IMG/VR virus record: IMGVR_UViG_3300025127_000294
Location: 1-23,093 of that record
Reading direction: 5' to 3' (one strand)
Length of the DNA: 23,093 nt
Source: a virus
Positions 2,321-22,696 of the stretch are shown here, piece after piece; the stretch's first letter is position 1, and each line of letters starts with the position of its first letter. Made by a program: the position numbers and the translations under genes. The notes beneath the pieces are model-generated. The model did no database searches. It was not told the DNA's origin and saw nothing but the letters and a program-made list of their open reading frames with translations.

Positions 2321-3843
2321 TGCCAGATACTTCACTGCTGAGTCCGTTTGTTGTGAAGCTAGGCGGCGGCCTGATGCTCGACAAGGATGCCTTTACTCTC
2401 CCGCCGGGAGCAGCAACTCAGTTGCAAAACTTTGAGCCGGATATCAACGGTGGCTATCGTCGCATCAACGGCTTTGCCAAGTTCAACTCAAATATTGTAC
2501 CACAGACTAGCGCATCCACCGAAAAAGTTCTTGGCTTACACGTTTACAAAGATCAGGTTATTGCCGCACGGGGCACAAAAGTGTTCAAGGGCGGCGCAAC
2601 CGGATCGTGGACAGAGATAGACACGGGGCGTACGAGTGCCGGAAGGTACAACTTCGTCAACTTTAATTTCGACGGTACGGACAAGGTTGTGTATGTTGAC
2701 GGTGCAAATCTTGCATCGGTCTTCAACAACAGCAGCGTTACTGACGTAAGTGCCAGCGGGAGACCGGCAGACCCTAAATTTGTAGAGGTGTTTCGAAGCC
2801 ACGTATTCTACGCGGGTATGTCTGCAAGTCCACAAGAACTTATCTTCAGTGTACCGTTTGATGAGGATGACTTTACTCCGGGCACCGGTGCAGGATCAAT
2901 CAAGGTCGATGGCGTCATCAAGGGCATCAAGGTCTTCCGTGAAAGTCTCTTTGTTTTCTGCGAAGACTCTATCTTTAAGATCACAGGTTCAAGTTTGTCG
3001 GATTTTGCAGTCGTACCAGTTACACGTAAAATCGGCTGTGTAGATGGTTTTAGCATTCAAGAAATATCGGGTGACATCGTTTACCTCGCACCTGACGGAC
3101 TGCGTACGATTGCGGGTACGGAAAGAATTGGTGACGTTGAACTTGGCACCGTGTCAAAGCAGATACAGCCCCGTCTAGATAACGTGTCTACAGAAAGAAT
3201 ATCCTCTGTCGTCATACGAGGAAAAACGCAGTATCGTTTATTTTTTCCCACAGACGCACAGCAAGCATCAGCGGCTCTTGGCATCATCGGGGTTATTAAG
3301 GCTGGTACAGAAGGCGGCATAGGCTGGGAGTACGCAGACATTAAAGGCATCAAGCCCGCCTGTTGTGCGTCTGGGTTTATCGGCGGAGTCGAAACAATCT
3401 TACACGGCGGATACGACGGCTACATTCACAAGCAGGAGACTGGCAACACCTTTGACGGTACCAACATAGCCGCAGTCTACCGTTCTCCCGACTACACGAT
3501 GGGTGATGCTGGCATCCGCAAACTAATGCAACGTATCATCTGGAACTACGATAACGACGGAGCCGTAAACTCCAAGTTTCGTATTCGCTACGACTTCAAC
3601 TCGTCAGACGTGCCTCAACCTACAGAATATGATTTAACTACGGGTGCGGCGATTGCCCTCTACGGACTCGCCGCATCGACTTACGGCACTGCTGTGTATG
3701 GATCATCGGGTACTCCGCTGGTCCGACAGAGTGTAGAGGGCGGAGGATTTACAGTAGCAGTGCGTTTGGACGACAGACAGGGAGCAGCCCCCATCTCAGT
3801 AAAAGGCTATCAACTTGAATTTACGCCGGGGGGCAGGAGATAA
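2320..3843 (+). CDS. Tail nozzle / head-completion protein (507 aa)
   Basis: Probably the nozzle that closes the distal end of the short tail and retains packaged DNA. The N-terminus carries the pattern I associate with these proteins (LPPGAA from residue 27, then NFEPDINGGYRRINGF at 37-52). The body is beta-rich with repeated strand-turn units such as VFRSHVFYAG and VFRESLFVFC, which suggests a propeller-like fold. Four cysteines are present, including an adjacent pair in the PACCAS segment. AGGG at 2309-2312 lies 7 bases before the start. Position directly after the adaptor and before the first fibre supports the role. Alternatives are a P22 gp10-like stabilisation protein or another tail-tube component; these overlap in function. 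Confidence 0.62.
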   Translation: MPDTSLLSPFVVKLGGGLMLDKDAFTLPPGAATQLQNFEPDINGGYRRINGFAKFNSNIVPQTSASTEKVLGLHVYKDQVIAARGTKVFKGGATGSWTEIDTGRTSAGRYNFVNFNFDGTDKVVYVDGANLASVFNNSSVTDVSASGRPADPKFVEVFRSHVFYAGMSASPQELIFSVPFDEDDFTPGTGAGSIKVDGVIKGIKVFRESLFVFCEDSIFKITGSSLSDFAVVPVTRKIGCVDGFSIQEISGDIVYLAPDGLRTIAGTERIGDVELGTVSKQIQPRLDNVSTERISSVVIRGKTQYRLFFPTDAQQASAALGIIGVIKAGTEGGIGWEYADIKGIKPACCASGFIGGVETILHGGYDGYIHKQETGNTFDGTNIAAVYRSPDYTMGDAGIRKLMQRIIWNYDNDGAVNSKFRIRYDFNSSDVPQPTEYDLTTGAAIALYGLAASTYGTAVYGSSGTPLVRQSVEGGGFTVAVRLDDRQGAAPISVKGYQLEFTPGGRR

Positions 3844-3846
3844 TAC

Positions 3847-5733
3847 ATGGCAGGTTATACCAGACAATCTACATACACTGACGGCGACGTTATCAACGCA
3901 GCGGACTCCAACGACGAGTTCGATCAGGTACTTGCTGCGTTCAACAACTCGACTGGTCACAAGCACGACGGTACTGCTGCAGAGGGTCCAGTTATTGGAC
4001 TCATTGGCGATCCGGGAGAGACAACGCCACTCAACAAAGTCGTTATTGACAACCCCAACAATCAGATTGAATTTTCGGTTGACGTATCCAGTTCTTCTGT
4101 AGAGCAGCTTGTTATCAAAGACGGCGTGATTGAGCCGACAACCAACAACGACATTGATCTGGGTTCCTCGAGCAAACAATTCAAAGACCTGCACATCGAC
4201 GGGGTTGCAAACGTGGACAGCATTGCGATGCCGACCACAACCGTCACGGACATCCTAGACGAAGACAACATGTCGTCTAACAGTGCTACTGCGCTTGCCA
4301 CACAACAGTCGATCAAAGCCTACGTCGATACACAACTCACAGCAGAAGACCTTGACTTCCAAGCGGACAGCGGTGGCGCACTCTCTATTGACTTAGATAG
4401 CGAAACGCTCACATTCACTGGTGGTACTGGTATTGACACTAGCGGCTCTGGGAATGCCGTTACTTTTGCTATTGACTCTACTGTAGCCACCCTGACGGGT
4501 TCGCAGACCTTGACGAACAAGGCAATAGACGCTGACAATAACACCCTGTCGAACATCGAAGTGGACAACCTCAAGTCGGGCGTTCTCGACACGGACCTGT
4601 CGAGTGTTGCCGGAACAGATACCACCCTTGCATCAGCCAAAGCTATTAAGGCATACGTAGATGCACAGATACAGACGGAAGACACTCTAGAGGAACTGAA
4701 CGACACAAACATCTCGTCGCTTGCATCGGGTCACATTTTGATCTACGACGGCTCTGACAGTTTTGACAACAAGGCTATCTCCGGTGACGTTACACTCGCC
4801 TCTACGGGTGCTGTGACGATCGCCAACGATGCTGTCGAAACAGCGATGGTCAACGAGAACGTCGTCAGCGGTCAGACTGCAATCACCTCTGGCGATGTCA
4901 ACATCACCAACGACACACTGCTTCTGCACGATGCAGATGCCAGTGCCCTGAAGAAGGTCACGGTCACTAACCTGATTTCTAGTGCCGGTGGCCTGACAGA
5001 AGTCGTAGCTGATACCAGTCCCCAGCTTGGGGGCAATCTTGATGTAAACGGTAATGACATCGTATCTGTATCAAACGGCAACATCGACATCCTTCCCAAC
5101 GGCTCTGGTGTGGTCAACCTTGATGGTAACGGCTCGTCTGGCGGTGTTTCCATCTCCGACGGTCTTATTGACATTCGCACTGGCACAGGCAGCGTAGCGA
5201 AGGTGAATTTCTACTGCGAGTCGAGCAATGCACACGCACAGACCTTACAGGCACAACCACACTCTGCAGGTGTGACTAACACTCTCACTCTTCCTGCCGG
5301 TGGCAATCAAGAGATTGTGGGTACGACTGCCACGCAGACCCTGACCAACAAGACCCTGACTACACCGACTATTGACCTGTCAGGTGTTACGTCGTCGGGC
5401 GACTTGGCTGTTGCCAACGGTGGCACGGGTGCATCTAGTGCGTCGGCTGCACGTACGAATCTTGGCTTGGCTATCGGTTCTGACGTACAGGCGTACGACG
5501 CAGAACTCGCTGCACTGGCTGGCCTCACATCTGCTGCAGACAAGGGTATCCAGTTCACTGGTTCTGGCACCGCAGCGACATACGATCTGACAGCAGCAGG
5601 TAAAGCACTGCTGGATGACGCCGACGCGGCAGCACAGCGTACGACTCTTGGTCTTGGTACGGCGGCTACGGCAAACACAACAGCCTTCGATCCGGCTGGT
5701 GAGGCGGTTGCTCTAGCTATCGCACTGGGTTGA
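3847..5733 (+). CDS. Tail fibre protein (628 aa)
   Basis: A fibre that is probably attached to the nozzle by its N-terminus. Residues 1-60 form the anchor (starting AGYTRQSTY, with GHKHDG at 37-42). The module from about 66 ([14 protein letters not shown]) to 110 is followed by a shaft of low-complexity, Thr/Asp/Ser-rich beta units. A segment with [10 protein letters not shown] recurs later as [10 protein letters not shown], and QTLTNK occurs twice, so the shaft contains internal duplications. Near the end, [18 protein letters not shown] (from 523) is a motif common to many phage fibres. The protein stops soon after this without a recognisable receptor-binding tip, so it may be a shaft or connector for proteins encoded downstream. 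AGGAG at 3835-3839 precedes the ATG by 7 bases. The sampled end of this gene is about 60% GC, higher than the right half of the window. Confidence 0.85.
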
Positions 5734-5758
5734 CAAACTACGCAAAACAATCTATAAT
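5730..5758 (+). promoter_or_regulatory. Perfect-consensus sigma70 promoter
   Basis: TTGACA at 5730-5735, exactly 17 bases, and TATAAT at 5753-5758: 12 of 12 consensus bases at the optimal spacing. The -35 overlaps the TGA of the 628-aa fibre gene. Transcription would start near 5765, giving a leader of about 14 bases that holds AGAGGG and the ATG at 5779. By chance a perfect match with this spacing is not expected in a window this size. It should let host RNA polymerase transcribe the host-recognition block separately from upstream genes. Confidence 0.85.
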
Positions 5759-5778
5759 ATATCCGAAGAGGGATACCA

Positions 5779-6108
5779 ATGGCAAACTCATTTAAACTGG
5801 TGACAGACACTGGAGTAGGCACTTCCGCTGCCACGGTTCATACTGGTGCTAGTTCTACCGAAACAACAATCATTGGCATGTCGATTGCGAACATTCACAC
5901 TTCACAGATTGAGGTAGATGTACAGCTTGAGAACAATGACGGTGACAATATCTACATTGTAAAGGATGCACCTATTCCTGTGGGTAGCAGCCTTGTTGTT
6001 GTGGGCGGTGAACAGAAAGTAGTTATGAACGCAAGTGATGTTTTGAAAGTTACGTCAAACGTCGCATCTAGCGCAGACGTTGCTTTGTCTATTCTTGAAA
6101 TTACGTAA
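5779..6108 (+). CDS. Small beta-rich tail-associated protein (109 aa)
   Basis: A hydrophobic-alternating, beta-sandwich-like protein with the segments IIGMSIANIHTSQIEVDVQL and YIVKDAPIPVGSSLVVVGG, no charge clusters, no cysteine and no membrane segment. I recall proteins of this pattern beside tail fibre genes of marine phages, where they are annotated only as hypothetical or structural. It is the first gene behind the consensus promoter, with AGAGGG at 5767-5772 spaced 6 bases from the ATG, so it may be made in large amounts. A decoration protein or a fibre-to-nozzle adaptor are both reasonable; neither is shown by the sequence. Confidence 0.72.
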   Translation: MANSFKLVTDTGVGTSAATVHTGASSTETTIIGMSIANIHTSQIEVDVQLENNDGDNIYIVKDAPIPVGSSLVVVGGEQKVVMNASDVLKVTSNVASSADVALSILEIT

Positions 6109-6117
6109 GGAATAATC

Positions 6118-8367
6118 ATGGGTTATATCGGCGCAGGTATATCAAAATTTAACACCGCAGATGGACTGACTGTCAGCGGCAACACTGATATTGACGGTGG
6201 CACAATCAAGCTGGATGGTAATTACCCAACAGGCACAAACAACGTGGCATTGGGTGACACTGCACTTGATGATGGCAGCTTGTCAGGTGGTAACAATACG
6301 GCGATTGGTTCTGCTGCGCTGAGTGCAAACACTACTGGTGCAAATAACACAGCAGTAGGGGTTGAAGCACTTGTCGCAAACACTACTGCTGAATTAAACA
6401 CTGCGATGGGATATCGGTCTTTATATCTTAATACCACTGGTGAACTTAATACAGGAATAGGTGGCTTTGCATTAAACAAAACCACAACAGGTGTTAGGAA
6501 CACAGCGGTTGGCTATACGTCAATGAACTCAAATACCACTGGTGGGTATAACACTGCGTTGGGTTCTCACTCACTTGACGCAAATACTACGGCTAGTGCG
6601 AACACCGCAGTCGGATACTCTGCGCTTGGAGCAAACACTACTGGCGGTGACAATACCGCTGTCGGGTATAATACGCTAGACGCCAACACAGAAGGTGCCA
6701 ACAATTCAGCATTTGGTGTGGGTGCGCTTGGGGCTAATACAACGGCAAGTAATAACACCGCGATGGGTAAAAATGCCCTTTCCGTAAACACCACTGGCAC
6801 AGAGAATGTTGCTGTTGGTTCTATTTCATTGGATGCTCTTACAACAGGCATTTACAATACTGCTGTGGGTCACGGTTCATTAGGGTCAACTACCACCGCA
6901 GCTAACAACACTGGCATAGGACAGGGTGCTTTGGCATCCAACACTACTGGTGCAAGCAATACTGCGGTTGGTAGGTCTTCATTGCTTGCGAACACCACCT
7001 CTAGCGAAAACACCGCTGTTGGCTACAATGCACTGACAGCACAAACCACCGGAACTGCTAACACCGCTATTGGCTGGCAAGCAATGGTAAGCAACGTACA
7101 CGGTGATAGAAATGTTGCTGTGGGTAACGAGGCACTTGAGGCGTACAATCCGACATCTGCTGGCACAGATTCGTACAATGTTGCTGTAGGTTTCCGTGCG
7201 CTGACTGCCAACACTACAGCAGGAAACAACACTGCAATCGGTGGATTGGCTCTTGATGCTAATACCACTGGCGCTCTTAACACCGCAATCGGTCAAAACT
7301 CTATGACTGCAAATACTACAGGCGAAGAGAATGTTGCGGTAGGCAGGTCTAGTTTGCAAAACAACACCACAGCAAACGCCAACACGGCTGTTGGTTATGC
7401 AGCACTCGGTTCAAACACCACGGCAAATAACAACACAGCCGTTGGCTACACTTCTATGTATGCCAATACAACAGGCCATTCCAATGTCGGGGTGGGCTAT
7501 CAAAGTTTGTATAACAATACCGAAGGCACATCCAATGTCGCCGTAGGTTGGAACGCCGCAGATGCAAATACCACAGGGTCAGCCATAACCGCTGTCGGTG
7601 AACATTCACTAGGTGGGAACACTTCAGGCGATAACAATACTGCTTGTGGTAGAGAAGCCCTTAAAAACAACACCACAGCAAGCACCAACACAGCTGTTGG
7701 AAAAGCGGCACTTAAAGCGAACACCACTGGCAGTGCCAACGTAGCTGTCGGGAGCGATGCTTTACTCGTAAACACCACTGGCGCAAGCAATACTTCAGTA
7801 GGCAGTATCTCAGGAGATGCTATAACAACAGGTAGCAACAATACGTCAATAGGGCATCAAGCAAATCGTATAACGACTAATGGAGATAACAACACTATTG
7901 TTGGAACGCTTTGCCGTTCATCTGGCACTGGTGATTCTAATATGGTTGTTGTTGGTTCTAACGGTATGGTTGGAAAAGGGTCAAGTACAGCCTTTATATC
8001 TGGCGGTAACGGCCCAGTTTACGCTGGTAATAACTCATCAAACTTTGCCACAACCTCTGACCGCCGCATTAAGAAAAACATTGAAGATAACAATACAGGG
8101 CTTGATGCAATCAATCAGGTTCGTATTCGTAACTTTGAGTATCGCACCCCTGACGAAATTGATGAACTGCCATCTCATGCAGCTATTGACAAGCAGGGTG
8201 TGCAACTTGGTGTTATCGCTCAAGAGATACAAGAAATCTTACCTGATGTAGTCAGGGAAGAAACTACAGGCTGTCTCAGCGTAGACCCTGAAAATATGAC
8301 TTGGTATTTGGTAAATGCCGTAAAAGAACTCTCAGCAAAGGTAGCCGCACTGGAGAACGCAGAATGA
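6118..8367 (+). CDS. Repeat tail fibre with S74 self-cleaving chaperone (749 aa)
   Basis: A long fibre for host binding. Residues 1-41 are a short anchor (GYIGAGISKFNTADGLTVSG, then GTIKLDGN). Residues 42-608 are about 33 tandem units of 17 residues with consensus NTAVGxxALxxNTTGxx, similar in style to the beta-roll head repeats of trimeric YadA-type adhesins. The C-terminus is a peptidase S74 intramolecular chaperone: Ser647 and Lys652 in SDRRIK match the Ser/Lys dyad (Lys at +5), GVIAQE lies at 698-703, and a coiled coil ends the protein (AVKELSAKVAALENAE). In this family the domain trimerises the fibre and then cuts itself off near that Ser. AAGGA at 6107-6111 gives a 6-base spacing. The stop overlaps the next start (ATGA). 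The receptor is unknown. Confidence 0.88.
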   Translation: MGYIGAGISKFNTADGLTVSGNTDIDGGTIKLDGNYPTGTNNVALGDTALDDGSLSGGNNTAIGSAALSANTTGANNTAVGVEALVANTTAELNTAMGYRSLYLNTTGELNTGIGGFALNKTTTGVRNTAVGYTSMNSNTTGGYNTALGSHSLDANTTASANTAVGYSALGANTTGGDNTAVGYNTLDANTEGANNSAFGVGALGANTTASNNTAMGKNALSVNTTGTENVAVGSISLDALTTGIYNTAVGHGSLGSTTTAANNTGIGQGALASNTTGASNTAVGRSSLLANTTSSENTAVGYNALTAQTTGTANTAIGWQAMVSNVHGDRNVAVGNEALEAYNPTSAGTDSYNVAVGFRALTANTTAGNNTAIGGLALDANTTGALNTAIGQNSMTANTTGEENVAVGRSSLQNNTTANANTAVGYAALGSNTTANNNTAVGYTSMYANTTGHSNVGVGYQSLYNNTEGTSNVAVGWNAADANTTGSAITAVGEHSLGGNTSGDNNTACGREALKNNTTASTNTAVGKAALKANTTGSANVAVGSDALLVNTTGASNTSVGSISGDAITTGSNNTSIGHQANRITTNGDNNTIVGTLCRSSGTGDSNMVVVGSNGMVGKGSSTAFISGGNGPVYAGNNSSNFATTSDRRIKKNIEDNNTGLDAINQVRIRNFEYRTPDEIDELPSHAAIDKQGVQLGVIAQEIQEILPDVVREETTGCLSVDPENMTWYLVNAVKELSAKVAALENAE
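6241..7941 (+). repeat. 51-bp (17-residue) coding repeat array, about 33 units
   Basis: Tandem degenerate units encode N-[TV]-A-[VIM]-G-x-x-[AS]-[LM]-x-x-N-T-T-x-x-x. Almost all are exactly 17 residues; the first is 18 and unit 18 (from residue 315) is 22. DNA identity between units is moderate, so the array is old or under protein-level selection rather than freshly amplified. It could serve as substrate for unequal exchange that changes fibre length. Confidence 0.9.
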
Positions 8368-9359
8368 CTAGAGCAAGAGATATAGCAGACCTCGTTGATT
8401 CCAGCGGCGATATCGTTGCAGGGGCATTAGGTAACGTCCCTAATAGAAACCTCATCATCAACGGAGCCATGCAAGTTGCCCAGCGAGGAACCAGCCATAC
8501 AACAGAAGGTTACGGTTCTTTAGATAGATACTCTCTCGCACTTTCTGGCGCATCAGGAGTAACAATGTCGCAAGAAGCATTTTCAACTGCTGACAGAAAC
8601 TCTCTTGGATTTGAAAAATACCTAAAACTAGAAGTAACAACTGCAAACAATAACTGCGGTGTTTATCACTACATTGAAGCGTCAAATGCTGTAAATTTAA
8701 TTGGTAACAAAGCCACACTTTCTTTCTATGCAAAAGGAACTAATCCCGCTGGTGGCAGTTTTACAATGCAACCCGCGTGGTATAATACATCTAGTGGTGG
8801 TGGTGATAATGCAGTTGCCCAGTCTCTTACTGTAACTTCATCGTGGGTAAAATACAGCTTTACTTTTGATATTCCAGCCCCTGCTAATACTACTATAGAT
8901 AACAGCGCATACCTTTCAATTCCGTTTATTCAACCTGCAGGAGACACTAACACAACTGCGTGGGAGTTAAATTTGGCTGGGTTGCAATTTGAACTAGGCT
9001 CCAACGCATCCGACTTTGAACACCGCAGCTTTGGCGAGGAACTGGCCCTGTGTCAGCGTTTTTATTATCAGACACCAGATAGTGAGCATAGTGTTCACAC
9101 AGTCCGCAGTTACAATAATGGTAATCAATACTATGGAACAGTTGCTTTTCCTGTCACAATGAGAGCAAACCCCACTTTTAGTACACAGACTAACACAATT
9201 AATTTACCTTCGATTTCTAATACAACAGGAACATTTACGGCTCATAATAGAACAAGGCACAGGTGTATTATACGCATTGTCCCTGCCAGCGATGCGGGTA
9301 CTTATACATACACTGTCATAGCTATTAACAACGCCATGAAGTTCGATGCGGAGTTGTAA
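8364..9359 (+). CDS. Carbohydrate-binding-like tail protein (331 aa)
   Basis: A candidate receptor-binding or tail-tip protein. The N-terminus (TRARDIADLVDSSGDIVAG) resembles short virion-anchor segments of phage fibre proteins. NRNLIINGAMQVAQRG at 27-42 begins a jelly-roll-like module that ends with GLQFELG (206-212) and EHRSFGEELALCQRFYY (219-235), a combination widespread in phage tail proteins and reminiscent of carbohydrate-binding modules. The C-terminal domain (236-331) has AFPVTMRANPT at 261-271. Three cysteines occur (98, 230, 301). The ATG at 8364 overlaps the S74 fibre stop, with GGAG 8 bases upstream; a longer frame from 8301 only overlaps the fibre gene. Glycan binding is inferred from the fold pattern. 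Confidence 0.78.
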   Translation: MTRARDIADLVDSSGDIVAGALGNVPNRNLIINGAMQVAQRGTSHTTEGYGSLDRYSLALSGASGVTMSQEAFSTADRNSLGFEKYLKLEVTTANNNCGVYHYIEASNAVNLIGNKATLSFYAKGTNPAGGSFTMQPAWYNTSSGGGDNAVAQSLTVTSSWVKYSFTFDIPAPANTTIDNSAYLSIPFIQPAGDTNTTAWELNLAGLQFELGSNASDFEHRSFGEELALCQRFYYQTPDSEHSVHTVRSYNNGNQYYGTVAFPVTMRANPTFSTQTNTINLPSISNTTGTFTAHNRTRHRCIIRIVPASDAGTYTYTVIAINNAMKFDAEL

Positions 9360-9361
9360 AA

Positions 9362-9571
9362 ATGAATGAAATGAACATTACATCAGCACAATACCAACAA
9401 AATTCAATTTTAAATGACAGTGATGAACTTGTGCTGGATGGTATAAATCACTCAATTAAGGCAACGGTTGACGGTGTGCAGCTAGACATACCTCTTGACC
9501 CAGACAATCGTCACTACGCAGAAATCATGCGTCAGGTAGAAGCTGGTGACCTGACCATAACAGACGCCTAA
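9362..9571 (+). CDS. Small fibre-linked protein, possible assembly factor (69 aa)
   Basis: A small acidic soluble protein ending in IPLDPDNRHYAEIMRQVEAG, a pattern that I associate with short proteins encoded beside tail fibre genes (DP.N..Y.E....V..G near the C-terminus). No membrane segment and no cysteine. Its start is 2 bases after the preceding stop, with GGAG at 9350-9353 and 8-base spacing. Lying between two fibre genes, it may be a fibre assembly chaperone or a minor tail component; this comes from position and loose resemblance only. Met4 at 9371 is an alternative start. Confidence 0.68.
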   Translation: MNEMNITSAQYQQNSILNDSDELVLDGINHSIKATVDGVQLDIPLDPDNRHYAEIMRQVEAGDLTITDA

Positions 9572-9587
9572 TTTACAGGAGAATAAA

Positions 9588-9833
9588 ATGGACGAACTTA
9601 CAACAGAACAAATCGCACAGAACTACACCGCTATGGGTCATTCCGTGCAACTCATCACAGACGTGATTGCAGGTGATGCAATGGCAGATGAAGAAGCAGA
9701 AGAGCGTCAGGGTTGCGTAGACCGCAATGTTGAGCATCTGCAACTGATGGTAGCTAAAGACTACTGGACAGATGAGAACATGACAGCAGTCAACGCTGCA
9801 ATCACAGCAGGTCAAGACTACACTGCCGAATAA
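9588..9833 (+). CDS. Small acidic fibre-linked protein (81 aa)
   Basis: An acidic, probably helical protein with a central Asp/Glu/Ala-rich segment (GDAMADEEAEERQ), one cysteine, and a C-terminal part VEHLQLMVAKDYWTDENMTA. I recall this last pattern in small proteins next to marine phage fibre genes, without a known function. AGGAG at 9577-9581 lies 6 bases before the ATG, a strong start. It sits between the 69-aa protein and the second S74 fibre. A chaperone or cap for one of the two fibres is a fair hypothesis but unproven. Confidence 0.7.
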   Translation: MDELTTEQIAQNYTAMGHSVQLITDVIAGDAMADEEAEERQGCVDRNVEHLQLMVAKDYWTDENMTAVNAAITAGQDYTAE

Positions 9834-9851
9834 TAAACCGGAGAACCGTTA

Positions 9852-11561
9852 ATGGCTTACTTAGGCAAATCACCATCACAGGGTGTACGTAATCGTTACT
9901 ACTTCACTGCATCAGGCGGTGAGACATCAATCAGCGGTGCGCTGACAGGTGGCACCCTGACATTCACTGACGGCAACTATGTTGACGTGAACTTGAATGG
10001 TGTGACCCTAGTAGCTGGTACGGACTACAACACAAGCACAGCGAACACTATTGCTGGCTTGTCGGCATTGACTGCAAGCGATGTAGTTGAGATTGTAGTG
10101 TATGACGTGTTTAGTGTGTTTGGCGGCAACGTCAACGGGCCGTTTACCATTAGTGGTAATCTGTCTGTAGATAATGGCACCATCAAGCTAGATGGCAATC
10201 ACCCTGTTGGCACACAGAATGTTGCGCTAGGAGATACTGCACTAGACAGTAATACCACTGGCGGCAGAAATACTGCCATCGGTGCAAACGCGATGACTAC
10301 CTATAATGTCACAGATAGCGGAAACGATTTTAACGTAGCCGTTGGTTACAACTCTTTGACATCTCTTACAACAGGCTTTTCAAACACGGGTGTTGGTTCT
10401 TTAACTTTAGAGTCCACAACCACGGGAGCGAACAACACTGCCTGTGGGTATGGTGCGCTAGATAGCAATACAACAGCAAATAACAATACGGCTGTCGGTT
10501 ATGATGCACTTACCGCAAACACCACTGGCCCAAGAAATGTGGCACTTGGGTATGAGGCTGCAAAATCCAATACAACAGGCGATGCTGGAACTGCGCTTGG
10601 GTATGAGGCATTGCGAACAAATACGACAGGCAATTACAACACTGCTGTTGGTAAGGGTGCGTTGTACGGAAACACTACGGCATCTAACAATTCAGCTTTT
10701 GGTTTCAATGCACTGGCCGCAAACACCACTGGCACTAAAAACTCCGCACTAGGTATGCAATCCCTAGACGCAAACACCACGGGCAGTGACAATACCGCAA
10801 TTGGTTACAACGCACTTACATCGAATACTACAGCAGTTGACAACACTGCCGTTGGCAAGGATTCGTTGCTTGCAAATACCACTGGTGACAACTTGACTGC
10901 TGTTGGTGACCAATCTGGCTATTACAACACTACTGGAAGATGGAATACATTTATCGGTAAGATGGCTGGGTTTAACAATACTACTGGACAAGCTAATCTG
11001 TTTATCGGTAGCGGCTATGCTCCCGCTGGTCATGCTATGACGACAGGCTCACAAAACGTAATTATTGGTGGCTACAACGGCAATCAAGGCGGCCTAGACA
11101 TCCGCACATCCGACAGCAACATCGTGCTGTCTGATGGGGCTGGTAATCCTAGATTACGCATTAGTTCTGACCCTTATCTTTTTGTACAAGCAGTTTATGA
11201 TGCAACGACATCCAGTGCTGCAAATGTTTTTGTAAGCACACAAGGTCTTTTGCAAAGGTCAACATCATCGTTGCGTTACAAGAATACAGTAAGTGACGCA
11301 ACACACGGCCTAGCAGAACTACTTGCACTGCGTCCTGTTACATATAAAGGCAACAATGATGGTGACACAATCTTTGGCGGCTTGATTGCTGAAGAAGTGC
11401 ATGATGCTGGCCTGACAGAGTTTGTGCAGTATGACGATGACGATAGACCGGACGCACTGGCATACGGCAATATGGTATCGCTGTGCATCAAAGCTATCCA
11501 AGAACAGCAAGCAACAATCACAGCACTTGAGGCTCGTATAGCCACACTAGAAGCTGAATGA
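9852..11561 (+). CDS. Second repeat tail fibre with S74 chaperone (569 aa)
   Basis: A paralogue in design of the 749-aa fibre but with a different anchor. Residues 1-110 start MAYLGKSPSQGVRNRYYFTA, an N-terminus I recognise from marine phage fibres, and form a separate beta domain. GTIKLDGN at about 109-116 introduces the repeat array (123-381, 15 units, mostly 17 residues), which then degenerates into looser units. The S74 domain has Ser472 and Lys477 in SSLRYK (Lys at +5) and GLIAEE at 510-515, and ends in a coiled coil (QATITALEARIATLEAE). The usual Asp after the catalytic Ser is replaced by Ser. GGAG at 9840-9843 gives an 8-base spacing. The stop overlaps the start of the next gene. Confidence 0.87.
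   Translation: MAYLGKSPSQGVRNRYYFTASGGETSISGALTGGTLTFTDGNYVDVNLNGVTLVAGTDYNTSTANTIAGLSALTASDVVEIVVYDVFSVFGGNVNGPFTISGNLSVDNGTIKLDGNHPVGTQNVALGDTALDSNTTGGRNTAIGANAMTTYNVTDSGNDFNVAVGYNSLTSLTTGFSNTGVGSLTLESTTTGANNTACGYGALDSNTTANNNTAVGYDALTANTTGPRNVALGYEAAKSNTTGDAGTALGYEALRTNTTGNYNTAVGKGALYGNTTASNNSAFGFNALAANTTGTKNSALGMQSLDANTTGSDNTAIGYNALTSNTTAVDNTAVGKDSLLANTTGDNLTAVGDQSGYYNTTGRWNTFIGKMAGFNNTTGQANLFIGSGYAPAGHAMTTGSQNVIIGGYNGNQGGLDIRTSDSNIVLSDGAGNPRLRISSDPYLFVQAVYDATTSSAANVFVSTQGLLQRSTSSLRYKNTVSDATHGLAELLALRPVTYKGNNDGDTIFGGLIAEEVHDAGLTEFVQYDDDDRPDALAYGNMVSLCIKAIQEQQATITALEARIATLEAE
10218..10994 (+). repeat. 51-bp coding repeat array of the second fibre, 15 units
   Basis: Same N-[TV]-A-[VIL]-G-x-x-[AS]-[LM]-x-x-N-T-T-x-x-x units as in 6241-7941. 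The second unit (from residue 140) is 21 residues long. After 10994 the phase is lost in units of 20-21 residues. The opening segment, GTIKLDGN and VALGDTALD, is nearly the same as in the first fibre, so the two arrays share an origin. Confidence 0.88.
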
Positions 11562-20400: not shown

Positions 20401-22399
20401 CCTTATAGATTTTGCTACAGGCAAGAATCTGTCTCCAAGCACGGTGGCCGCAACCACGGGAACATTTAGAAGAGCAGCAAATAACTTCTTTGAAATGATG
20501 GCTGACGAGGGAGAGGACGTAGCACAGACAATCAAAAACACCGTAGAACTAGCTGGTGCTGACACCTCTTTTGCTACTCAATTTGCAAATCTATCAAGCT
20601 TAAAAGGCAACAACGACGCTATAATTGCAGCTATGTATCAGCGGCACTTGGCAAGCCAGTCTAATAGTGTTGTTGACACAATGAAGATATCAATGACACA
20701 GTTGCGTAAATTTGACAGCATGTTCAGAGAAATGGGTTTTAAAGCGAAGTCACCGGAAGCACAAACTCGTTACAGCAATATAAGCAGTGATGTAGAAGAA
20801 ATGTTTGGGCAGTTTGTGGTGGACACAGATGATGGTCCAATGTCTATTGGTCAACTCTTTGTACAACTTAAAGATAATGAAGCACCCGTAGATGTAGCTA
20901 CGGCACTAGCAGGATTTCGTAAAGAGTGGACTGATTACAAAGCCAACTGGTTTGACGATCCTGAAGTTGCAAGATGGATGGGCTGGGGAAAACGCGCCGC
21001 GACCCCACCAAGCGCGGATGAACCTCTGGGACTAATGAAAGAAAAAGTTTCGCAGCCTAAAAACTGGATAAACTTTGACACAATGGACTCTAATAACGTG
21101 CAGGATATGTTCCAAACGTGGAGAAAAACTGCAGGTTCTAGACGTGCGTCTCGTAATAACGCTAAACATATTGACCCCAATTCAGATTTAGGAAAAGCGT
21201 CTATTGCTTCCATGCGTGTTCAAATATCATCGTGGGTACAGAGCTACACCAAATCTGCAAACTTCAGTATAGAAGTGCTAGATGAAAAGCTTAGACTAAT
21301 GCAAGAAAACTTTGTAGGTGTTGATGCAAACGGAAAAGATGTTCCGCTATTTCCAGAGATAGGAAAATTAATAGATGACACCAGAGGGTTAGAGTCGGGC
21401 AGTGTTAGTGCTGCAGTGTTAGCTGAAGTAAGACAAGCAGAAAACAGCGCGGTTGATACTATGGCGGCGGAGTTCAAAAGAAACAAAAACAGCTACACAA
21501 AGGATATGAACACCGCTATAAAGACGCTTCAAAATTTTGCAACTGGCAAAGTGAATCCGTCTGACCTCATAGGCACCCTTCTTAACGGTGGTCCCCTCTT
21601 GGTAAAAGATTTTAGAGAAGCTCTCAAAAAGACAAAAAAGGCAGATGGAAGCTTTTTTGTAGATGATGACATTGATGTCCTTCTAGGGGATATGGCTGTG
21701 CAAGCTATAGAAGATACAATATTTACCCCGACAGGTAGACTCGACGTTAATCCTAGAAATCCAAATCAACTAATTCCGTCGTACGATTTTAACGTAGACA
21801 TGCTTGCTGATTTCATAGGCTACGGTAACAGGGATAAAGAACAGGCCATGATCAAAGTCTTTGGTCAGGCTAGATACGATGTAGCTAAAAAAATGGTTGA
21901 GTTTATACGCAACAAAGAAAACTCATCTTTGGGCGGTTTGAATGTCAGCGGAATACCGCGCCGCTTTTCAGTTGAAAGTTACATATCCAGATTCTACGCA
22001 ATCAACCGCGATGTCATAGGCCCACAATACGTAGCCACAGAGTCGATACTGCAAAGGATGCGTTTGCGTAACTTTAGTATGGTGCAAGCTGCTCTTACTG
22101 ATCCTAAAGTTGGAGAGTTGTTTCTTGAAATGCTAGAGTCTGGCAAGCCGCTTCCTCCTAAAAAAGAAAAAGAATTAACCACCCTTCTCACAGCAGTGTA
22201 CGTTAAGCTCAGCGCTACTTTGCCACAATACGCTCGTGAGGGAGGAGTTGCAAAGGAAGACTTAGTAGGACTTCCCGGATGGAAAGTAAGAGAGATGACG
22301 GAAGAACCGTTGAGCGGCAGTGTGTTTCCGTTGCATCCTGAATATAAAATGGAAATGATCAGAAGAATACCGACCCAAAGACCTGTAATTACAAACTAG
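17426..22399 (+). CDS. Giant candidate internal virion (ejection) protein (1657 aa)
   Basis: The largest gene here, 4,974 bases. Residues 1-130 are Pro/Glu-rich and probably flexible. Most of the rest is helical. A hydrophobic, Gly-rich stretch at about 600-640 (FMVIGSAVGGQMIQHLGG, then LGTSLVVLAGSSQAA) could insert in a membrane. The C-terminal 300 residues are charged and end in RRIPTQRPVITN. There is no cysteine at all. The size exceeds T7 gp16 (about 1,318 aa), which also lines the ejection channel; similarity is in size and position only, and no peptidoglycan-cleaving motif is evident. The ATG follows the preceding stop by one base, with AGGAG at 17409-17413, rather far (12 bases) upstream. 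Other large virion-carried proteins cannot be excluded. Confidence 0.7.
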   Translation: MAEPENITQEEDLGPRVEEAPSEPLQKSFLERMQSSIGARPASPVDLVAVRDPEIPPFKSSTPFEKTRPFYGTPSEQATGIRVDGGQPPSVVFSDPQRGAPAVVGEPEVTYEPFSLFGLPSFGIDIPAEQKFNKLADIDYSKLSPILSINEVYDFSNPEQVAAINSYTGIVDRDGRKIPFSPNASIDDKIRVADNFEAVSFFKAARDADDIVDSIPWETVIAKRLELPADFADRQGRVPLKVPFMDIGLPPTAHQKLLGFNYLTYTLPNYAEPDLRRAEALRHMNLSLLELSETYPELKDARTRLGILDYTAAIKFYDGKKIIAEYGRTAARAGFEFAGWFVGEGAQAIMSVGKLFDFETPEGGLLDSKTRQETLTSFIPRYADGLQRRLLQNGVDVSFGVAEYLVRHSMSLPPRVVGNAVELIMPTSLAAKAKQTLSTADYKAFQMYREAQAKTGRTDIDGFEFLNEFVESNKASLVTRGVNNLLMNKIVNVPLFGRGGKWARVGLVSRLNAGKNLAEMELPLPQREGYATILTVRDRSTKLRDDILGRAAAEKRAPTKKEMDRIEIYEAKIKEANIDLMAEVAQQNVPNFMRTMARQNNFMVIGSAVGGQMIQHLGGDPGLGEAIGLGTSLVVLAGSSQAAIKWVRSTYKNADKKAVDQAEFIAQGINTFDPQYAEAILTRAGYMRELRDALIEEGVPAEVVNLSIGQLTGLAVLQALDATTRQNISAKQIGKFGKEVQDIIDIHAAETELVVELREVFSRMAQNTYPEGSAASKMQELIGNAIDFAEKDIDQRVADFDVLISTASYKVQAMVENNTGKSLSHTGLGKRYLDDFETALTNLTELGIELSENTVEAVQEIARERTGAVLSVAEARASAALSELGDITSGQAAATDFVGEKGVKPFGRAARVTKDDIPKFETGEDLQSIVVETSHVRDRENASAGFRVLDREQYMIQTPNGGFMTVGTQPYVDGGSLLDGLIGALGIDTGVDLIDFATGKNLSPSTVAATTGTFRRAANNFFEMMADEGEDVAQTIKNTVELAGADTSFATQFANLSSLKGNNDAIIAAMYQRHLASQSNSVVDTMKISMTQLRKFDSMFREMGFKAKSPEAQTRYSNISSDVEEMFGQFVVDTDDGPMSIGQLFVQLKDNEAPVDVATALAGFRKEWTDYKANWFDDPEVARWMGWGKRAATPPSADEPLGLMKEKVSQPKNWINFDTMDSNNVQDMFQTWRKTAGSRRASRNNAKHIDPNSDLGKASIASMRVQISSWVQSYTKSANFSIEVLDEKLRLMQENFVGVDANGKDVPLFPEIGKLIDDTRGLESGSVSAAVLAEVRQAENSAVDTMAAEFKRNKNSYTKDMNTAIKTLQNFATGKVNPSDLIGTLLNGGPLLVKDFREALKKTKKADGSFFVDDDIDVLLGDMAVQAIEDTIFTPTGRLDVNPRNPNQLIPSYDFNVDMLADFIGYGNRDKEQAMIKVFGQARYDVAKKMVEFIRNKENSSLGGLNVSGIPRRFSVESYISRFYAINRDVIGPQYVATESILQRMRLRNFSMVQAALTDPKVGELFLEMLESGKPLPPKKEKELTTLLTAVYVKLSATLPQYAREGGVAKEDLVGLPGWKVREMTEEPLSGSVFPLHPEYKMEMIRRIPTQRPVITN

Positions 22400-22408
22400 G
22401 AGTGAAAC

Positions 22409-22696
22409 ATGAAAACCTACACTAACGGCCAACGCAAAGGCATGATGTACGGCGGTGCTGCAAAGCGCAAGCCAATGATGTACGGCGGAATGGCAACCAA
22501 AAAGAAACCCCGCAAGAAGGCTCAAGCGGGGGGCATGATGACCGCAACACAGGGTCAACAGAATCAGATGCAAAATCAAACCATGCAAAAGCCAAAGATG
22601 CCAATGATGGCTGACGGCGGCAAGCTAAAGATGGTAAAGAACAAGGCCGGTGATATGGTTCCGTTTTACGCCGCAGACGGCAAAGGCAAAAGCTAA
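22409..22696 (+). CDS. Basic Met/Gly/Lys-rich MMYGG protein (95 aa)
   Basis: Low-complexity, strongly basic protein. MMYGG occurs at residues 12-16 and 23-27, each followed or preceded by Lys/Arg clusters (AAKRKP, ATKKKPRKKAQ). The centre is Gln/Met/Asn-rich (GQQNQMQNQTMQ) and the end has ADGGKLKMVKNKAGDMV. I recall similar short MMYGG proteins at the end of structural operons in marine phages, without known function. AGGAG at 22398-22402, 6 bases before the ATG, makes a strong start. Charge suggests binding to nucleic acid or to an acidic partner; a packaged DNA-associated protein is one idea. It is the last gene of the plus-strand operon. Confidence 0.75.
   Translation: MKTYTNGQRKGMMYGGAAKRKPMMYGGMATKKKPRKKAQAGGMMTATQGQQNQMQNQTMQKPKMPMMADGGKLKMVKNKAGDMVPFYAADGKGKS
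22442..22488 (+). repeat. 14-bp direct repeat encoding MMYGG
   Basis: ATGATGTACGGCGG occurs at 22442-22455 and again at 22475-22488, 33 bases apart and in the same frame. It reflects an 11-residue repeat in the 95-aa protein. Confidence 0.85.

Follow-up and report, generated by a model that had tools for sequence, protein, structure and literature searches.

Gene order and a candidate promoter at the fibre junction

The window analysed here is a viral contig of 23,093 bases in which a block of fibre genes lies on the + strand. The first tail fibre gene (3847-5733, + strand, 628 aa) was assigned by PHROG tail fibre matches and by its likeness to gp43-bearing loci, and is a homologue of HMO-2011 gp43. 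Directly downstream of the junction lies a gene of 109 aa (5779-6108, + strand), a homologue of the HMO-2011 gp42 'putative structural protein' with 55% identity. Searches of PDB and Pfam with the 109-aa protein revealed no match, and its AlphaFold model was of no use (pLDDT 44). After a gap of 9 nt follows a 749-aa repeat-rich fibre or spike protein with a C-terminal Peptidase_S74 intramolecular chaperone (6118-8367, + strand), then a fibre protein with a PHROG tail fibre match (8361-9359, + strand; its 352-aa ORF opens at 8301, 8361 being the likelier start) and a second repeat-rich fibre of 569 aa with a weak S74 match (9852-11561, + strand). All three are presumed to be co-transcribed. The C-terminal residues of the first fibre (..AIALG or ..AIAL and stop; window 5700-5733) are alike in otherwise unrelated phages with the 109-aa gene, and a matching fibre C-terminus was seen upstream of this gene in loci L031-L080.

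The 507-aa tail protein of the window showed 54.5% identity to Pelagibacter phage HTVC033P and 50.5% to HMO-2011, and the tail genes follow the HMO-2011 order gp45-gp44-gp43-gp42. A close relative of 61 kb (G002) encodes an HMO-2011-like TerL (53%) and DNA polymerase (41%), both genes lying outside the 23-kb window fragment. The 507-aa identity, the gene order and these two G002 genes make it very probable that the window belongs to an HMO-2011-type phage. A near-DNA search of the window against phage records returned a 65-bp match only. The host of the phage, and with it the sigma factor, is presumably alphaproteobacterial.

Direct reading of the window confirmed the first-pass annotation, which had described a perfect box with 17-nt spacing overlapping the fibre stop codon. 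TTGACA-N17-TATAAT lies on the + strand at 5730-5758 and equals the E. coli sigma70 (RpoD) consensus at 12/12 hexamer positions and in its 17-nt spacing, within the 16-18 nt of sigma70-type promoters. The -35 hexamer TTGACA occupies 5730-5735 and contains the fibre stop TGA (5731-5733); the spacer AACTACGCAAAACAATC covers 5736-5752 and the -10 hexamer TATAAT 5753-5758. An extended -10 TGn is absent in the window, where ATC precedes TATAAT; most relatives have the extended -10 TG (TGG or TGA), in contrast to the window clade. By geometry, transcription is predicted to start at 5765 on the + strand, about 7 nt past the -10 hexamer, which would leave a leader of 14 nt before the ATG at 5779. A putative Shine-Dalgarno-like AAGAGGG (5766-5772, + strand) precedes this ATG. 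The box occupies a gap of 45 nt, the largest intergenic gap in the gene run of the window, with the Shine-Dalgarno-like motif close behind; the next largest gap measures 30 nt (1389-1418) and the remainder 18 nt or less. We discounted another box, TTGCTA-N17-TATAAT at 1392-1420, as it reaches 10/12 and its -10 overlaps the Shine-Dalgarno/ATG region of the next gene.

The 12/12 site is the single one in the window with both hexamers perfect; 11/12 sites do not occur and the next best reaches 10/12. Markov-1 shuffles (spacers 16-18, both strands) gave about 0.017 perfect sites per window. Promoter-like sites as a class are barely enriched (34 found vs 27.7 expected), which favours a chance match. 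From the single genome a chance origin of the perfect box is unlikely; it is the conservation in relatives that decides the matter.

The box accompanies the HMO-2011-type backbone

Relatives of the 109-aa gene were gathered from the window protein (80 loci) and from HMO-2011 gp42 (80 loci). Their upstream regions are bimodal: among 90 distinct ones, 43 carry a 12/12 box with N17 and five a 10-11/12 box with N17, and the others show no convincing box. Shuffled upstream regions never reached 12/12 (0/1,800), and intermediate-scoring boxes were not found among HMO-2011-type loci.

The presence of the box tracks the phage backbone. When upstream regions were assigned as HMO-2011-type by adjacency to HMO-2011-type tail/fibre genes, 43 of the 45 distinct upstream regions in this class had a box of at least 10/12 directly before the 109-aa gene, compared with 1 of the 32 that belong to other phage types (Fisher P 5e-18, an overstated value because the sequences are related). 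The lone box-bearer of other type, L190, comes from a contig of 53 kb, the fibre of which is a partial match to that of the window. Cultured HMO-2011 has TTGACAAAGCCACAAAAGTATGGTATAAT between gp43 and gp42, although the 109-aa proteins of HMO-2011 and the window share no more than 55% identity. The box thus recurs at the very junction at which the first-pass annotation had proposed to look for it in related genomes. Kept across many divergent relatives, and expected at only 0.017 per window, it leaves a negligible probability for a chance match, a reading already refuted by conservation.

Loss of the box in relatives that keep the gene order, named beforehand as evidence against a promoter, does happen but is rare. 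Two of the 45 HMO-2011-type upstreams lack it, namely L197 and L046, the latter a close relative of the window with the same gene order and a 507-aa homologue of 65% identity. It is also missing in cultured CRP-9, CRP-13 and HTVC033P; CRP-1, CRP-207 and CRP-738 have nothing comparable past the fibre gene. The absence from L046, L197, CRP-9, CRP-13 and HTVC033P shows that the box is dispensable and not essential for the HMO-2011-type group. On a tree of the 109-aa protein, presence and absence of the box need five label changes and the gene passes from one phage type to another, so loss and gain cannot be polarised.

Hexamers are retained while spacers diverge

An alignment of 29 distinct 29-mers, pre-selected at 10/12 or better and therefore favouring low hexamer divergence, showed a pairwise difference of 0.039 per hexamer site vs 0.433 per spacer site. 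At least 41 changes are needed among these variants, and the hexamers take only 4 of them (binomial P 9e-6). Bases 1-5 of TTGACA are invariant and base 6 is A in 26/29 variants, and in TATAAT three of the six bases are invariant and the other three are kept in 27-28 of 29. The spacer is 17 nt long in every box-bearing relative of the 109-aa junction; its sequence is unconserved. Given the conservation in 43/45 upstreams and the 0.04 vs 0.43 differences per site in hexamers and spacer, the box is almost certainly a selected sigma70-type promoter.

Exchange events around the junction

The fibre block is a hypervariable, mosaic patchwork. Comparison of the window with relative G003 revealed 98% DNA identity of the 109-aa gene starting at its ATG (5778). 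The spacers of the two promoters are unrelated and both promoters are 12/12, which, beside a 98%-identical gene, suggests that the promoter was swapped for an equivalent and not lost. Window and G002 are alike from 5726 on, just before the box; the fibre ends upstream differ. In L022 an Endonuclease_7-domain gene (~9530-9960; 6e-27, endonuclease VII-like) is inserted between fibre stop and promoter. The L022 promoter is intact, and the stop of the inserted gene overlaps TTGACA, as that of the window fibre does. These three cases indicate that the promoter is kept or equivalently replaced through exchange events.

The breaks of DNA identity at 5726 (window/G002) and 5778 (window/G003), and an endonuclease gene inserted exactly at the junction in L022, would also suit a conserved recombination joint, a landmark for fibre module exchange that does not act as a promoter. 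Homology at such a joint should keep the whole stretch; however, the spacers are unrelated and conservation is limited to the two hexamers and the spacing of 17 nt, and we regard this explanation as very improbable. We tentatively consider, at rather low probability, that promoter and 109-aa gene together make up a start cassette, complete in itself and open to exchange, at the site of swapping of host-recognition genes. If true, a full-consensus host promoter would be held by selection and replaced by unrelated but equally perfect versions, and an incoming fibre block would be expressed at once by any host RNAP, independent of the upstream operon.

Two short islands of 97-98% DNA identity (window 5778-6175 and 9577-10136) are shared with relatives whose remaining genes show far less similarity. 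The islands lie on either side of variable fibre genes and may be potential homology arms for swapping these. G002 (L083-L086) contains a 4.7-kb stretch twice (3641-8351 vs 56779-61489, 99.5% identity), one copy of which ends at the ATG of the 109-aa gene; this is either assembly redundancy or a real repeat.

Polymerase search and further host-type boxes

Searches by tblastn with T7 and HTVC019P RNAP queries, aimed at the T7-like class, revealed no match in HMO-2011, G002, G003, G004, G006 or the window fragment, with HTVC019P as positive control (1.6e-126). They replaced a PF00940 search of 17 records, in which the control genomes gave no match.

Exactly two sites in HMO-2011 (55 kb) reach 12/12, and the structural strand carries both: one at the gp43/gp42 junction and one at 53368, which heads the leftward operon 21.6 kb upstream of the junction box. 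According to the HMO-2011 annotation this one-strand operon spans about 36 kb. The same pair of 12/12 boxes at head and junction was found in G003 and G004, with a third 12/12 site within a coding region of G004; in G002 and G006 the box near the operon head scores 11/12. The distance from head to junction is about 20-22 kb in HMO-2011, G002, G003, G004 and G006, circular closure being assumed for G003 and G006.

A further 11/12 box, TTGACA-N16-TATAAC, precedes the coat gene in HMO-2011, six relatives and CRP-1; its spacer is one base shorter than that of the fibre box and its last base is C. It does not occur in the own clade of the window (L003). As the conserved sequence TTGACA-N16-TATAACTATA it is located in L102 within the long gap that precedes the coat gene (22393-22634; HMO-2011 37393-37632), and the coat-gene box was also seen in L005, L013, L016, L020, L022, L028 and L114. 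Another 11/12 site, TTGACA-N17-TACAAT, occurs within the coding sequence of the fibre, some 480-780 nt before the junction (HMO-2011 32482, G003 16436, G004 10462, L022 ~9045). Its TTG and ACA codons stay and their neighbours vary. We set it aside as a promoter, since it lies within coding sequence and is probably coding.

The first-pass annotation had seen the fibre box as possibly standing outside a late control exerted by a phage factor or polymerase. This view finds no support, as a T7-like RNAP was not detected in the HMO-2011-type genomes searched and more host-type boxes occur. With no T7-like RNAP found and boxes at operon head and coat gene, host promoters look like the usual means by which these structural genes are read. 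Host-type promoters within the structural operon are thus likely the rule in these phages and no escape from another control.

A proposed role for the fibre box

We propose, with a probability of roughly 80%, that the box is a working promoter for RNAP with the host primary sigma, which restarts transcription of the 109-aa gene and the fibre genes within the structural operon. From sequence features we infer RNAP binding, the start, the extent of the transcript over the fibres, its timing and the reason for selection. Host RNAP would bind the box and initiate at about 5765, some 14 nt ahead of the 109-aa gene, and the transcript would read this gene and then extend over the downstream fibre genes. 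In this way the fibre block would have its transcription restarted and raised about 20 kb past the head promoter of the operon, and the distal, swappable host-recognition genes would get enough mRNA whatever the upstream content.

Between the box and 9042 no terminator-like site was found on the + strand, so the 109-aa/fibre block should be transcribable without upstream promoters. The earlier claim that the box drives the host-recognition block is in keeping with this, with the placement at the start of the block and with the conservation; the exception to late control attached to that claim was not supported.

The promoter might instead serve the 109-aa gene alone, setting the dosage of a small virion protein, with the fibres mainly read from upstream promoters. 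The box always adjoins the 109-aa gene and is retained when either flanking sequence differs, which fits such a restricted use. However, the absence of a + strand terminator-like site from the 109-aa gene to 9042 and the mere 9 nt to the next gene imply that the transcript should continue, and we consider the restricted use rather doubtful.

It is also conceivable, though unlikely, that the box is in addition an operator or depends on a phage factor and is a regulated promoter. The -10 of most relatives is embedded in the palindrome GTATAATTATAC (or within AAGTAT...ATACTT), the junction and head boxes of HMO-2011 have TGGTATAATTATACT in common, by which one regulator could switch both, and the motif TATAATTATAC is common in this upstream set. 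The window clade, however, has CTATAATATATCC without a palindrome and is still 12/12, and the same extended sequence is present ahead of sliding-clamp genes on phage contigs of a very different type, which fits plain use of host sigma70. Being palindromic, the -10 GTATAATTATAC at the junctions of L005 and L016 yields a TATAAT on the opposite strand as well, with TTGCCA 18 nt off (11/12), and divergent antisense transcription is possible there.

Promoters with the exact consensus can escape slowly. An exact consensus need not mean a strong promoter in the presumed alphaproteobacterial host.

Comparison with known promoters and phages

As a promoter, the box is of a known kind; unusual are the full consensus as a common natural state and its position marking a mosaic joint. 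Phage promoters read by unmodified host RNAP, such as T7 A1, T5 N25 and similar ones, are early promoters. Like these, the fibre box is a strong host-type sequence on phage DNA; unlike them, it lies in a structural operon. According to PMC12464699, the full consensus sequence does not occur in any natural sigma70 promoter of E. coli, whereas at this phage junction it is the common natural state, and the junction boxes form a family of natural full-consensus sigma70 promoters, most of them adding the extended -10 TGn. The consensus is that of E. coli and the host sigma presumably alphaproteobacterial; in the alphaproteobacterium R. etli, the primary sigma SigA uses the RpoD consensus (PMC4943231).

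With the HMO-2011-type phages (PMC9038755), a dominant marine group, the window shares backbone genes and the gp44-gp43-gp42 order; HMO-2011 has the box and several isolates are without it. That paper mentions neither promoters nor RNA polymerase, our literature search for promoters in these phages returned nothing on point, and we found no description of their mode of late-gene transcription. Pelagiphage HTVC027P, which is without its own RNAP, is reported to use host RNAP throughout infection (PMC12753301). HTVC027P resembles the HMO-2011-type in being marine, in the lack of an RNAP and in having structural genes read by host RNAP, but belongs to a different phage group. Conserved host-type promoters along the structural operon provide a specific and testable map, with positions at head, coat and fibre, and tie the placement of promoters to mosaic exchange of host-range genes.

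The extended consensus TTGACA-N17-TATAATTATACT also stands before a 223-aa gene in L213, L227, L228, L248, L251, L259, L264, L265, L267 and L278. The Pfam match of the L227 copy of this gene is the gp45 sliding clamp. With a gp45-clamp gene standing behind it in other phage contigs, the extended consensus is not confined to the fibre junction.
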